64,000 nt of DNA, from assembly GCA_016125495.1 (NCBI GenBank), contig WGLQ01000008.1, positions 124,001 through 188,000 on the forward strand, given 5' to 3'. The position numbers and the translations under genes are program-made. A model generated the notes under the pieces. That model made no database searches, was not told the origin of the DNA, and saw only the letters and a program-made list of their open reading frames with translations. How positions within the stretch are numbered: position 1 is the stretch's first letter; each line of letters opens with the position of its first letter. Source of the DNA: Hyphomicrobiales bacterium (lineage in GTDB: Bacteria > Pseudomonadota > Alphaproteobacteria > Rhizobiales > RI-29). Below, in pieces: positions 6,200 to 52,378 of this stretch.

Positions 6200-6275
<76 letters not shown>

Positions 6276-8868: not shown

Positions 8869-11800
8869 CTAGAACCGCCACCGGAAACCCGCCGAGACGG
8901 CCTGATCGGTCGCCTCGTCGGAGAGGTTGGCACCGTAATCGACGAAGCCGGTCAGCGCGTCATCGAAGGCGACGTTGACACCGACGCCGACGGCGAGCGC
9001 ATCCTCGGCGCGCCGTGCTCCGGCGACCGTGAACGTCCCGCCGCCGCCCGCGAGCGTCAGCGGCACGAGGGGCGCGATATCGCCGCTGGTGTGCACCCAG
9101 CCGATGCGGGCCTGCGGCATCACCGTCATGCCCTCCGAGCGGTAGGTCCCCGCGATCCGCAGGCCGACGATGGTGTCGAGGGTGTCGTAGCTCTGGGCGG
9201 CGACCGTCAGGTTCGCGGCGCCCGCCCCCTGCTCGGTGAAGCCCTCGACATCGACATCGGCCCAGCGCACCGCGATCATCGGCATCAGCGCGAGGTGCCC
9301 CATGTCCATCAGATAGGCCGCCTCGCCATAGAGACTGATCTGGTCGGCATCGTAGCCGGCCGTCGCCGTGCGGGCGATGCCGGGAAAGACGATGTTGCGC
9401 GACGTCTCGATGTCGTGGGACGAATATCCGGCCAGCGCCTTGAGATGAATGTTGCCGATCACGATGCCGCCGTAGGCGGCGATGCTGGCCGTCTCGATGT
9501 CGTAGTTCGAGAGCCGCGCCTCGGCGTCGCCATCCGTCCGGCCCCAGTGGGCCATGAGGCCGATGCGCGTGCCCGGCGCCACCAAGGTATCGACGCCGCC
9601 CATGAGGCCGCCCGAGGTGGATTCCGCTTGCGCCGCGTTGCCGTCCGAATCCAGCCGGCTGACGTCACCATAGCCACGCGCCCATCCGGCAAGGCTCGAG
9701 CGCGGCCGCAGCGGTCCTTCGTCGTCCTTGGCTGAGCCGTGTCCGAGGGCCATCTGCCCGTGGAGCGCCTCGGAGGTGAGGCCGAGGCCCATGAAGGTGG
9801 ACTGTGAGCCCCCGCTGCCGCCCTCGCCTCCCCCCGTCTCGAGTTGCCACAGCCGCTCGCCGGCGATCCCCGTCAGGTGGCGAACCGTGTTGAAGAACGC
9901 GTGCAGCGCCGAGGCATGGACTTCGCCCGAGAGCAGATCGAAGGCCGCCCGTGCCTCATCGGGATCGAGCAGGAGGAGGGCATTGAAGAGGGCGAGCGCG
10001 TCGCCCGTCTGCAGGAAGTTCTCGAGCGCCGCTGCGACCTGCTGCTGGTTGAAGGTCTGGGCGACCGCCGTGAAGGCCGCCACCTGGTCCAGGGTGAGGA
10101 AAATATTGTTGGCGTCGGACGAAAGGAGGAATTGGAGGAAGGCCGAGGCGTCCGTCACGCCGTCGAACTGGCCCGTGACGCCACCGGTCGAGGTGAGGAT
10201 GGTGAAGACCGTGCCGTCGACGTAGCTGGTCGCGGGATCGAGGGTGATCACCTCCACCGTGCCGCCATTGATCGTCGTCGTGCCGGCAACGGCGAGAAGG
10301 TCGGAAGTCCCGTTGGCGGCAACCTCCACCCGGAAGATCGAACCGGGCGAAAAGAGCGCGTTTCCGGCGACGTTGAGCGTGCCGATGGAGTTGCCCGGGG
10401 CGACCGCGCCGCCGTTGTTGGCAAAGAGATCATCCACCGTGCCGGTGCCGCCCAGCGCGCCACCGTCGACCACGGCATCGGACAGGTTCGTGCCGTTGAC
10501 GTTGAGGAGACCGCCGGTGACGGTCGTGTCGCCCGTGTAGGTGTTGTCGCCCGTCAGTGTCGTCGTGCCGTCGCCGGACTTGAGCAGGGCGCCGGAGTTG
10601 CCGCCGTTGCCGGTATCGTCGGCGATCACGTCGTTGATGGTCTGCGTCTCACCCGTCTGCGGATCGAAATTGATCGTCGCGTTCTGGAGGAAAATGCCGC
10701 CGGCCGCCATGCCGTCGCCGCCGTCGTTGCCGCCCGATCCACCGGTCACCGTGCTGGCGCCCATGGTGCCGGAGCCGCGGATGGTCAGCGTGCCGCCTTC
10801 GCGAACGAAGATCGCGCCACCGAATGCCGCGCCACCGCCGCCGCCATTCGTGCCGCCGTCACCGCCGCCGAAGCCCGCGAAACCGGCGCACGCCCCGCCG
10901 CCGCCGAAGCCGCCGTCGCCGCCTTCGAGAAAACCGCCACCATCGGCGCCGCCACCGCCGCCGCCGAAGCCGCCATTACCGCCACTGTCGAAGTCGCCGC
11001 CGCCGCCGCCGCCGAAGTCACCGCCGTTGCCGCCATCGAACTCTTCCGAGCCGCCGCCACCGCCGAAATAGCCGCCGTTGGCCGCCCGGGTCGAATTCTG
11101 GAAGCTGTCCTCGCCGTCGCCGCCGCCGCCACCGCCGAACGCGCCATCACCGCCACCGCCATCCTCACCGCCGCCACCGCCGCCGCCGCCGAAGGCCTGG
11201 CCGGGCTGCCCGACGCTGGCGGCACCCCCGACGTCATCGCCACCTCGGCCACCCTCGGCGCCACCGCCCGCCCCGCCGGTGTTGACGACCGCGTCACTGC
11301 CGTCGGCCGTCAAGCCGCCGCCGCCGCCGCCCGCATCGGACGAACTGCCATTACCGCCGTTGCCGAAGAAGCCGCCGCCGCCGCCGCCGCCATCGTCGTT
11401 CGCGTTGCCGCCGTTGCCGAGCGCGCCACCGCCACCGCCGCCGCCCTCGTCAGCGCCGCCCTGGCCGCCATTGCCGTAGAGGCCGCCACCGCCGGAGGGG
11501 TCATTAACGACATTGTTGAAGGCCCCACCGTCGCCGCCGAGGCCGCCGCCGCCGATCCCCTGGGTCCCGGCCAGACCGTTGCCGCCCGTGGCGCTGTTGC
11601 CGGAGAAATTGACGAGGTCGAGAATGACCGTCGTGTTCTGGTCGACGAAGAGGCCGCCACCGGCGCCCATGCCGCCGCCGCCGCCGTTGCCGCCGATGCC
11701 AGCGCCGTTGACGATGTTGAGGTTGTTGATGGTGACCGTCGGGCCGCCCGCGGTCGTCGGCGAGGTCGAGGAGACGAAGAACGGCCGGAACGAATCCACA

Positions 11801-12138
11801 CCATCGATTGTGAAGCCGTTGCCGTTGACGGTCAGCGTGCGCCCGTCGTCGAGCACGATCGGCGCCACGTCCTGCGACAGCGCGAAGCTGCCCGTGATGT
11901 TGATGGTGTGGTCGTCGTTGCGGTCGAGCACCATCGCGCGGAGCGCGTTGGCGAAGGAGAGGTGGTCGTTGACGTTGAAGACGTCCGCCCGTGCCGCGGG
12001 GCCGGCGAGCACGAGGCCCGAAAGCGTGGTCGTGGCGAGCAATGCCGCCCGCAAGCCGCGCCCCCGGCGCAGCCGAAGCCCGGCAACCTGGCGGTTGGCC
12101 GACCCGATCCCGACAAACGTTCCTTGCAACTCGCGCAT
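8869..12138 (-). CDS. Autotransporter (type Va) with glycine-rich passenger
   Basis: About 1,089 residues. A long signal peptide (basic region, then LRAALLATTTLSGLVLAGPAARA) leads into a beta-helix-like start. A glycine-rich stretch of about 300 residues follows, roughly residues 146-441, made of GGGGGG, GNGG and GGDGG units with scattered Asp, Asn and Phe. Next comes an autotransporter beta-strand repeat (LLKSGDGTTTLTGDNTYTGD and following). The last 270 or so residues form the outer-membrane barrel, ending AGFRWRF with a terminal Phe. The passenger should be exposed on or released from the cell surface; adhesion is likely but unproven. ATGs at 12168 and 12138 are possible; 12138 gives the shorter leader. 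Divergent from sixA. Confidence 0.9.
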   Translation of the reverse strand: MRELQGTFVGIGSANRQVAGLRLRRGRGLRAALLATTTLSGLVLAGPAARADVFNVNDHLSFANALRAMVLDRNDDHTINITGSFALSQDVAPIVLDDGRTLTVNGNGFTIDGVDSFRPFFVSSTSPTTAGGPTVTINNLNIVNGAGIGGNGGGGGMGAGGGLFVDQNTTVILDLVNFSGNSATGGNGLAGTQGIGGGGLGGDGGAFNNVVNDPSGGGGLYGNGGQGGADEGGGGGGGALGNGGNANDDGGGGGGGFFGNGGNGSSSDAGGGGGGLTADGSDAVVNTGGAGGGAEGGRGGDDVGGAASVGQPGQAFGGGGGGGGEDGGGGDGAFGGGGGGDGEDSFQNSTRAANGGYFGGGGGSEEFDGGNGGDFGGGGGGDFDSGGNGGFGGGGGGADGGGFLEGGDGGFGGGGACAGFAGFGGGDGGTNGGGGGAAFGGAIFVREGGTLTIRGSGTMGASTVTGGSGGNDGGDGMAAGGIFLQNATINFDPQTGETQTINDVIADDTGNGGNSGALLKSGDGTTTLTGDNTYTGDTTVTGGLLNVNGTNLSDAVVDGGALGGTGTVDDLFANNGGAVAPGNSIGTLNVAGNALFSPGSIFRVEVAANGTSDLLAVAGTTTINGGTVEVITLDPATSYVDGTVFTILTSTGGVTGQFDGVTDASAFLQFLLSSDANNIFLTLDQVAAFTAVAQTFNQQQVAAALENFLQTGDALALFNALLLLDPDEARAAFDLLSGEVHASALHAFFNTVRHLTGIAGERLWQLETGGGEGGSGGSQSTFMGLGLTSEALHGQMALGHGSAKDDEGPLRPRSSLAGWARGYGDVSRLDSDGNAAQAESTSGGLMGGVDTLVAPGTRIGLMAHWGRTDGDAEARLSNYDIETASIAAYGGIVIGNIHLKALAGYSSHDIETSRNIVFPGIARTATAGYDADQISLYGEAAYLMDMGHLALMPMIAVRWADVDVEGFTEQGAGAANLTVAAQSYDTLDTIVGLRIAGTYRSEGMTVMPQARIGWVHTSGDIAPLVPLTLAGGGGTFTVAGARRAEDALAVGVGVNVAFDDALTGFVDYGANLSDEATDQAVSAGFRWRF
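10815..11700 (-). repeat. Low-complexity GGN/GCC-type coding repeat in the autotransporter
   Basis: On the given strand this is a long run of CCGCC, GCCGCCG and CACCGCC units; on the coding strand it is tandem GGC/GGT glycine codons. Units vary in length and are broken by Asp, Asn, Ser and Phe codons. The repeat also keeps the opposite strand open for hundreds of codons, which should not be read as a gene. Such tracts are prone to slippage, so length may differ between strains. Confidence 0.85.
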
Positions 12139-12464
12139 GCGCCCCAGCCCCCATGGTGCGATCGACATGACTACGATCAAGCAACCTCGCGGATGCCTGC
12201 CGACAGTTCATGACGATACCGATCGTCTCAGAGTCGAACGGAGTTGGCGACCACAGACGAAAGTGAGTTGCGTACAGTCGACGGAGTGTTGCTGCTTTGT
12301 GACAAAACGGTAGCGCCGTTCAGTAGGACGATCTTCGCCCTCCGGTGCACCCTCACCCGGTCACTCCCGCCGCTCGCGCCCCGCACGCCGGGCCTGCCGC
12401 AGAGCGGGCGTCATTCGCTCTCACACCCCCTCGCCTCGGAGAGCGGCTTGCGCTAGGGTTCGCC
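12139..12464. promoter_or_regulatory. Divergent intergenic region, autotransporter and sixA
   Basis: About 326 bases separate two genes read in opposite directions, so both promoters should lie here. The part near 12225-12330 is less GC-rich than the surroundings, which would suit a promoter. I cannot name a specific sigma-factor site or operator with confidence. Confidence 0.35.
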
Positions 12465-51028: not shown

Positions 51029-52378
51029 TCAGCAATTCTTCTTCACGTAGGCCGTCGGCGCGGCGCCCCGTTTGGCGTTGACCCGCGCCTGGGCGCTCGA
51101 CTTGTTCCTGAACGGGCCTTCGGCGACGCAATACCAACCATTTCGGAAGTTGGGGTGTTCATTGGTGTTCACGACGATGCCGCCGAGGCGGCGTTGTGAG
51201 CCGGCCGCTTCGCCAGGGCCCGCGTGACACGTGAAGATCGCGAACCAGCCGCAGCCGATCACGCTCGATGCCGTCGAGCCGCCACCGCCCGAACCGCCAC
51301 CGCCCGAGCCGCCCGAGCCGCCGGACGAAGACTGGTCGCGCGCTGCCTGCTCTGCCGCAAGGCGCGCGGCCGCGTCACGCGCCGCCGCTTCCGCCTCGGC
51401 ACGCATCGCCGCGATCCTTCGCGCTTCGTCCTCCAGTCGTCGGGCCTCTGCCTCGAGCGCGGAGCGCTCGGCCAACTCGCGCGCGGCAGCCTCGCGCGCC
51501 GTCTTGTCCGCCGCCTCGCGCTCGGCGGCTTCCTGCTCCTGGCTGCGCAAGGCATTGGCGAGGATTTCCGCGGCGCGCGCCTCGTTGCAATGCGCGTTCT
51601 CGCGGGCGAAGCGCTCGAACTCGCTCGCCTTGTTGACGGCGGCGACCCGGCCCCACGTCTCCGAACACGCCCGCTCGCGCACCCTGGCGAGCCGTTGGCG
51701 CGCCCGGGGCGCCTGCGGGCAGTGCTCGAAGAAGCGCAGGAACGCCTCCCAGTCGGCCTGACTGTCGCTCTGGTCCGCGCGCTCGAAACCGCGACCGCAA
51801 GCTGGATCGCTCGCCTGCTCGAAGGGCACCGTGAGGGCAAGCTGCTTCGAGCACGTGATACGCCCCTCGCGGGCTTTGTCGGTGGTCCAGACCAGAAGCT
51901 CGAAATTGCCGTTGGCGCCCTCGAGCGCGATCGGGCGAATGACGACCGTGACGTCGGCGACATCTCCCGAGCGCAGCAATTCCTGCAGACGCTCCACATT
52001 GTCGGTGCTGATCGATGTCGAGTGCGCGATCGACTGGAAGGCCGAGGCCGAAGTCAGGCGCGCCTGTGGTAGCTTGCCGAGGGTCTCGTTGATCTTGCCG
52101 ATCACGAACGATCGCTGGTCATCGCTGAGGCTCGTGGCCTCGGTCTGCACGCCGAGGATGTGGACATGACGCACGATGCCGGGCGTCGAGAGACACGCGG
52201 CGTCGAACTGCACCCCGATCACGGTCTCGAAGAGCTTCTGCTGCCAGACCGTCTGAGCCGCCGCCCCGCCCGCGACGAAATGGCTGGCGACCAGCAACAG
52301 CAAGCCACCGACGAGCCCGCCCCTCTGCAACCGCCGATGAACCGCGCGACGCCACGACCACCCCTGCATGCTCAGCAT
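51029..52378 (-). CDS. Secreted protein with coiled-coil and C-terminal SPOR-like segment, unknown role
   Basis: A 449-residue exported protein. A signal peptide (about residues 18-41, ending GGAAA-Q) is followed by a globular part of about 150 residues with Cys62 and Cys175. Then come a Cys-containing helical part and a long Ala/Glu/Arg coiled-coil (about 270-355, repeats such as REAAARELAERSALEAEARR). A Ser/Gly linker (SSGGSGGSGGGGSGGGG) precedes a compact end domain: NTNEHPNFRNGWYCVAEGPF and AYVKKNC, which looks like a small SPOR-like or peptidoglycan-binding domain. I do not recognise the whole protein. It lies beside a peptidoglycan amidase on the same strand, so a cell-wall role is plausible. 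Confidence 0.7.
   Translation of the reverse strand: MLSMQGWSWRRAVHRRLQRGGLVGGLLLLVASHFVAGGAAAQTVWQQKLFETVIGVQFDAACLSTPGIVRHVHILGVQTEATSLSDDQRSFVIGKINETLGKLPQARLTSASAFQSIAHSTSISTDNVERLQELLRSGDVADVTVVIRPIALEGANGNFELLVWTTDKAREGRITCSKQLALTVPFEQASDPACGRGFERADQSDSQADWEAFLRFFEHCPQAPRARQRLARVRERACSETWGRVAAVNKASEFERFARENAHCNEARAAEILANALRSQEQEAAEREAADKTAREAAARELAERSALEAEARRLEDEARRIAAMRAEAEAAARDAAARLAAEQAARDQSSSGGSGGSGGGGSGGGGSTASSVIGCGWFAIFTCHAGPGEAAGSQRRLGGIVVNTNEHPNFRNGWYCVAEGPFRNKSSAQARVNAKRGAAPTAYVKKNC

Follow-up and report, generated by a model that had tools for sequence, protein, structure and literature searches.

Polyglycine-II bundles, in which the repeat comprises three residues per turn, are known from solved structures of phage adhesins and a small number of other proteins, and they have been proposed for the PGRS proteins. 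In phage gp38 the solved structure consists of a beta-helix and a polyglycine-II sandwich with protruding receptor loops (PMC12892980; PDB entry 6f45). The helices in the models of PGRS33 are each three to five triplets long (PMC10216338). Glycine content by itself is insufficient for the conformation, since a scrambled PGRS segment loses it (PMC13243192). In the known cases of Pectate_lyase_5 and SRRP, a beta-solenoid forms an adhesive domain (PMC6973325, PMC9210967); for example, the binding region of L. reuteri SRRP (5ny0) belongs to an adhesin with a beta-solenoid fold (PMC6973325).

The locus described here lies in a window of 64,000 nucleotides, which is the whole stretch of DNA that was analysed, and appears to combine both elements in one gene, whose features are as follows.

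8869-12180, minus strand: autotransporter gene of 1103 codons, with a TTG start at 12180
11986-12138, minus strand: putative signal peptide with an Arg-rich n-region, ending ...LAGPAARA/D, read by eye from the sequence
11575-11985, minus strand: N cap, a beta-solenoid related to the Pectate_lyase_5 adhesive domain, with a small glycine loop and rung A at its end
10816-11586, minus strand: glycine-rich core, residues 199-455, 53% glycine by composition
10531-10839, minus strand: C cap, comprising rung B, the strand GIFLQ...INFDP and then a passenger repeat-like stretch
9685-10530, minus strand: rest of the passenger and linker, common to many autotransporters of the order (EprS-type tail)
8932-9684, minus strand: autotransporter beta-barrel, PF03797 positions 2-255 of 255, the protein ending ...FRWRF

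By its predicted domains the product is a classical (type Va) autotransporter with putative signal peptide, passenger and barrel. The typical n-, h- and c-regions of a Sec signal peptide are visible by eye at its N-terminus, where alternative ATG starts also occur at residues 5 and 15 (12168 and 12138), and the barrel lies in frame with the passenger and matches PF03797 with E 1.4e-57 (195.8-200.8 bits against a Pfam cut-off of 26), which bears out the autotransporter identity assigned in an earlier sequence-only reading. The N cap matches Pectate_lyase_5 (PF20585) over profile positions 3-95 of 126 with E 5.5e-5, at 23.7 bits against a cut-off of 24.3. Pfam and NCBIfam scans revealed no catalytic domain in the passenger; the EprS serine peptidase autotransporter model of NCBIfam was considered and rejected, as it reaches 261.6 bits against 1700 and covers the C-terminal half only, and the protein has no peptidase domain. 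The same genome holds two other barrel matches, one of them weak, and in the DNA that was read neither of them encodes a comparable glycine-rich stretch. On the plus strand, a 789-codon Ala-rich open frame (9844-12213) runs antisense to nearly all of the gene's glycine-rich half, and is best read as a shadow of GC-rich codons and not as a gene. The sole tRNA in the window is a tRNA-Thr (tgt) at 6200-6275 on the plus strand.

The glycine-rich part had been described as about 300 residues of glycine runs broken by Asp, Asn and Phe, and the count agrees: positions 10815-11700 encode residues 161-456, in which 148 of 296 residues are glycine (50%), accompanied by 23 Asp, 20 Asn and 18 Phe. The interval itself needs trimming, in that residues 161-198 form a solenoid rung with a small glycine loop outside the core, and the densest part is confined to residues 199-455 (257 aa), with glycine runs of up to 8 and irregular units some 16-20 residues long, of which GGFGGGGGG is an example; glycine content is ordinary in the remainder of the protein. 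Measured between the caps, the insert of the window copy comprises residues 203-443 (241 aa). Runs of at least five glycines take up 51 of these, where 26 would be expected if the same residues were shuffled (p about 0.001), so that the stretch is more than a product of chance or base composition. The reading frame is open throughout, the window gene has no frameshift, and the glycine codons are mainly GGC with some GGT, like those of the rest of the gene. A PDB search with the core alone gave no match. Elsewhere in the window, a 449-aa protein (51029-52378, minus strand) carries a natural SSSGGSGGSGGGGSGGGGS linker resembling the synthetic Gly4Ser linker, situated between an Ala-rich helix-like stretch and the C-terminal domain.

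Comparison with relatives places this stretch in a recurring module, whose order is an N-terminal beta-solenoid cap, a glycine-rich insert of variable length and a second solenoid rung homologous to the first. Eleven aligned family regions share a common anatomy of solenoid cap, glycine loop GGGGG[ML]GAGG, rung A, long insert, rung B and passenger repeat. In the window protein, rung A reads GGGMGAGGGLFV...NSATGGNG at the end of the N cap (family consensus [AG][LI]FV...N.A.GG.G), rung B reads GGGGAAFGGAIFVREGGTLTI (consensus of the rung B region GGGGA[GA][FLM]GGA[IV]FV..GG), and the passenger repeat-like stretch of the C cap reads LLKSGDGTTTLTGDNTYTG. Models of rungs A and B recognise each other in all eleven members, scoring higher than the 99th percentile obtained with shuffled sequences, and the glycine-rich insert thus sits between two homologous solenoid rungs, as expected of the passenger built for beta-helix folding that had been proposed. 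The third strand, GIFLQ (rung C), showed no significant repeat similarity to rungs A and B, and only two homologous rungs are therefore claimed. The solenoid assignment of the N cap is reinforced by the family, as Pectate_lyase_5 is matched by seven of the eleven members (best 8e-11), one relative (L044) lying above the cut-off at 26.9 bits, and the family profile of the N cap matches 5ny0 with E 2.7e-5. A relative from genome G015 (L021/L045) aligns with the window protein over the N cap, the insert and the rung that follows it, at 53% identity among the aligned columns, a glycine-inflated value.

Across 22 non-redundant copies, the inserts between the caps measure 97-286 aa and contain 43-62% glycine, with the window copy in the upper range; the stretch once called extreme is accordingly not extreme within the family. 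Quantised steps of 20 aa were not evident by eye among the lengths of these 22 copies. On the whole, the stretch is probably a glycine-rich domain of variable length set at one turn of a Pectate_lyase_5-like beta-solenoid, and would serve as a polyglycine-II-type adhesive insert.

The distribution of glycine within the inserts bears on this reading. Pooled glycine autocorrelation over the 22 inserts yields a peak at lag 3 (z about 13) and further peaks at 17-21 residues (z 4-7), both of which survive a shuffle that keeps the run lengths of glycine and non-glycine (lag 3 z 9.6), and residues in (GGx)n number 684 in the pooled family against 348 expected. The pooled pattern is the same when the window copy is left out. 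Taken by itself, the window copy gives weak signals (lag 3 z 2.1, lags 17-20 z 2.1-2.8, windowed period 3 z 0.2-1.0; 39 residues in (GGx)n where 21 would be expected, p 0.07), so that the claim of periodicity is stronger for the family than for the window protein. The match of synonymous glycine codons relative to expectation is 1.02 at lag 3 and 1.01-1.02 at lags 17-21; as codon identity at the periodic lags equals expectation, recent DNA slippage or duplication does not explain the pattern, which is one of the protein. These family periodicities would fit antiparallel polyglycine-II helices of the kind seen in phage gp38 adhesins or proposed for PGRS, which is the best reading of them.

An unlikely alternative is that the insert is a disordered, hydrated and flexible glycine spacer that makes the passenger longer or softer and has no defined fold. 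Such a spacer would agree with the high glycine content, with the threefold variation of insert length among homologues and with low predicted confidence, since AlphaFold run without an alignment resolved no helical bundle in residues 66-540 (pLDDT 41, about 30-37 in the glycine-rich part) or in residues 320-475 (mean pLDDT 47); those alignment-free values are uninformative and neither support nor exclude a bundle, so that the fold has to be inferred. However, a flexible spacer needs no period, yet glycine recurs at 3 and 17-21 residues at the level of the protein and not as a DNA repeat, and the GGFGGGGGG unit beside the C cap is almost invariant across the eleven aligned members.

It is improbable that the insert is a calcium-dependent, RTX-like sticky surface, in which the glycine-rich part is folded or cross-linked by acidic residues that bind Ca2+. 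The window insert has 28 acidic and only 2 basic residues and contains two scattered, loose RTX-like nonapeptides, and true RTX repeats stand at the C-terminus of two relatives; however, the Pfam scans gave no PF00353 match in the glycine-rich part of the window protein, the RTX repeats of the relatives lie outside the module, and the acidity is not conserved, with 0-8 acidic residues in most relatives. As the number of acidic residues ranges from 0 to 28 per insert, with the window copy extreme and the G015 copy next, and as the other inserts hold at most one RTX-like nonapeptide, the calcium binding that had been suggested is not a property of the family, and any such binding would be confined to a local specialisation. 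That the insert arose as a side effect of expanding GC-rich trinucleotides or minisatellites, with no function under selection, is very improbable and already disfavoured, for although the stretch has 76% GC and diverged units of 57-60 bp that match at 74-75% were picked up by a tandem-repeat finder, synonymous glycine codons are randomised at the periodic lags, the pooled pattern is unaffected by omission of the window copy, the caps are conserved and the cassette is retained across many genera.

The glycine-rich insert between solenoid rungs can also be followed among genomes and carriers. At a threshold of E<=0.001, the module profile has matches in 36 of 397 genomes of the order and in 24 of 141 genera, some weaker matches being partial and confined to the C-terminal repeat part. 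For most relatives in the order the similarity to the window protein is limited to its C-terminal half, and some share the passenger; a scan of genome contigs for related loci returned one locus, again matching the C-terminal half only, and no relatives of the protein or module were found in the viral contigs searched. When module and barrel positions and frame lengths were compared, most traceable copies proved to be in frame with PF03797 (G004, G054, G091 contig 5, G098 twice, G553, G586, G612, G623, G673, G120 and G425). Other carriers differ: the copy in G015 has a Met just before the cap, no visible signal peptide or barrel, and RTX repeats at its end; that in G597 has the passenger repeat PF12951 and terminal RTX repeats; and that in G755 has Ig and cadherin-like repeats at its end, its frame containing no barrel. 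By analogy with their family, the RTX-bearing copies may use type I secretion. As one and the same cassette occurs on several kinds of secretion vehicle, it is taken to be a real protein module and not junk repeat DNA.

Several copies are irregular or incomplete. In G166 (L041, C1:124000-133000), a 552-codon frame holds the module, and a barrel is encoded by another frame, of 538 codons, a few kilobases downstream, the gene being either broken or split, and the module match in G348 contains a stop. Genome G091 harbors at least four copies (L047, L048, L049 and L094) with similar insert lengths of 165-182 aa, which suggests expansion of a surface-protein family. Contigs of the drafts G696, G690, G673, G657, G628, G733 and G551 end in or beside the module, with matches starting at bases 1-13; the family is thus probably under-counted, and many database copies are probably truncated.

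The proposed mode of action begins with the barrel, which would pass the passenger to the cell surface, where the solenoid may fold after export as a stalk or base. The insert would then most likely form a compact bundle, built from short antiparallel polyglycine-II helices of about 8-10 residues each and returning every 17-21 residues, which would place Asp, Asn, Ser and aromatic residues in loops at the tips of the bundle. These variable loops, acidic in the window copy, would provide the contact surface for attachment or cell-cell aggregation. More tentatively, the solenoid cap and polyglycine-II bundle might constitute a portable cassette, a widespread and undescribed adhesive domain of Alphaproteobacteria that switches between the type V (barrel) and the type I (RTX) export route, gains or loses length in steps of whole helix pairs and bears variable tip loops as in phage gp38. 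In an incomplete literature collection, no paper was found joining polyglycine II, glycine-rich and autotransporter, and no title or opening of an abstract was found to describe this module. If the proposal is true, a bacterial surface module with dozens of natural length variants on autotransporter and RTX carriers becomes a tractable system in which the folding of glycine-rich bundles after secretion, the evolution of their length and the role of the loops in determining binding can be tested; a class usually dismissed as low-complexity sequence would become a definable domain family.

Compared with known systems, the window protein shares with type Va autotransporters (PF03797) a putative signal peptide, the beta-solenoid passenger, repeat-like stretch and C-terminal barrel in one frame, and differs in its glycine-rich insert of 240-260 aa and in having no recognised enzyme domain. 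The N cap has profile similarity to Pectate_lyase_5 and to L. reuteri SRRP (5ny0), whereas the solenoid of the window family is interrupted by glycine-rich loops and the window copy falls just under the Pfam cut-off. The T-even phage gp38 adhesins (6f45, 9v85), of which 6f45 was recovered in the search, have a beta-helix followed by a glycine-rich domain with variable loops and a glycine recurrence near 17 residues; they differ as tail-tip proteins of phages that are shorter and less glycine-rich (33-37%), and no sequence homology was found between gp38 and the module. In a control on eight gp38 glycine-rich domains, glycine recurred at 9 residues (z 5.2) and at 17 residues (z 3.5), and weakly at lag 3 (z 2.3); hence what gp38 and the family have in common is the layout and the long period, and the fold can do without a clean triplet signal. 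A further parallel, on unrelated carrier domains, is offered by the glycine-rich tip of Pam3 phage gp24 and that of the ALK receptor, where extended GGGGxGG segments stack into a lattice whose distal tips are variable (PMC9608196). PE_PGRS proteins are likewise glycine-rich, with a proposed modular polyglycine-II sandwich that tolerates length change (PMC10216338), but the window protein has long glycine runs and weak triplets in place of GGX, follows a different secretion route and gave no match to the PE domain in Pfam scans. Of the PGRS or polyglycine-II likeness first noticed, the polyglycine-II-type bundle is thus retained on the strength of the family periodicities, and kinship with PGRS is dropped because of the missing PE domain and the weak GGX signal of the window protein. 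The module is best read as a polyglycine-II-type adhesive insert and not as a member of the PE_PGRS or RTX families.
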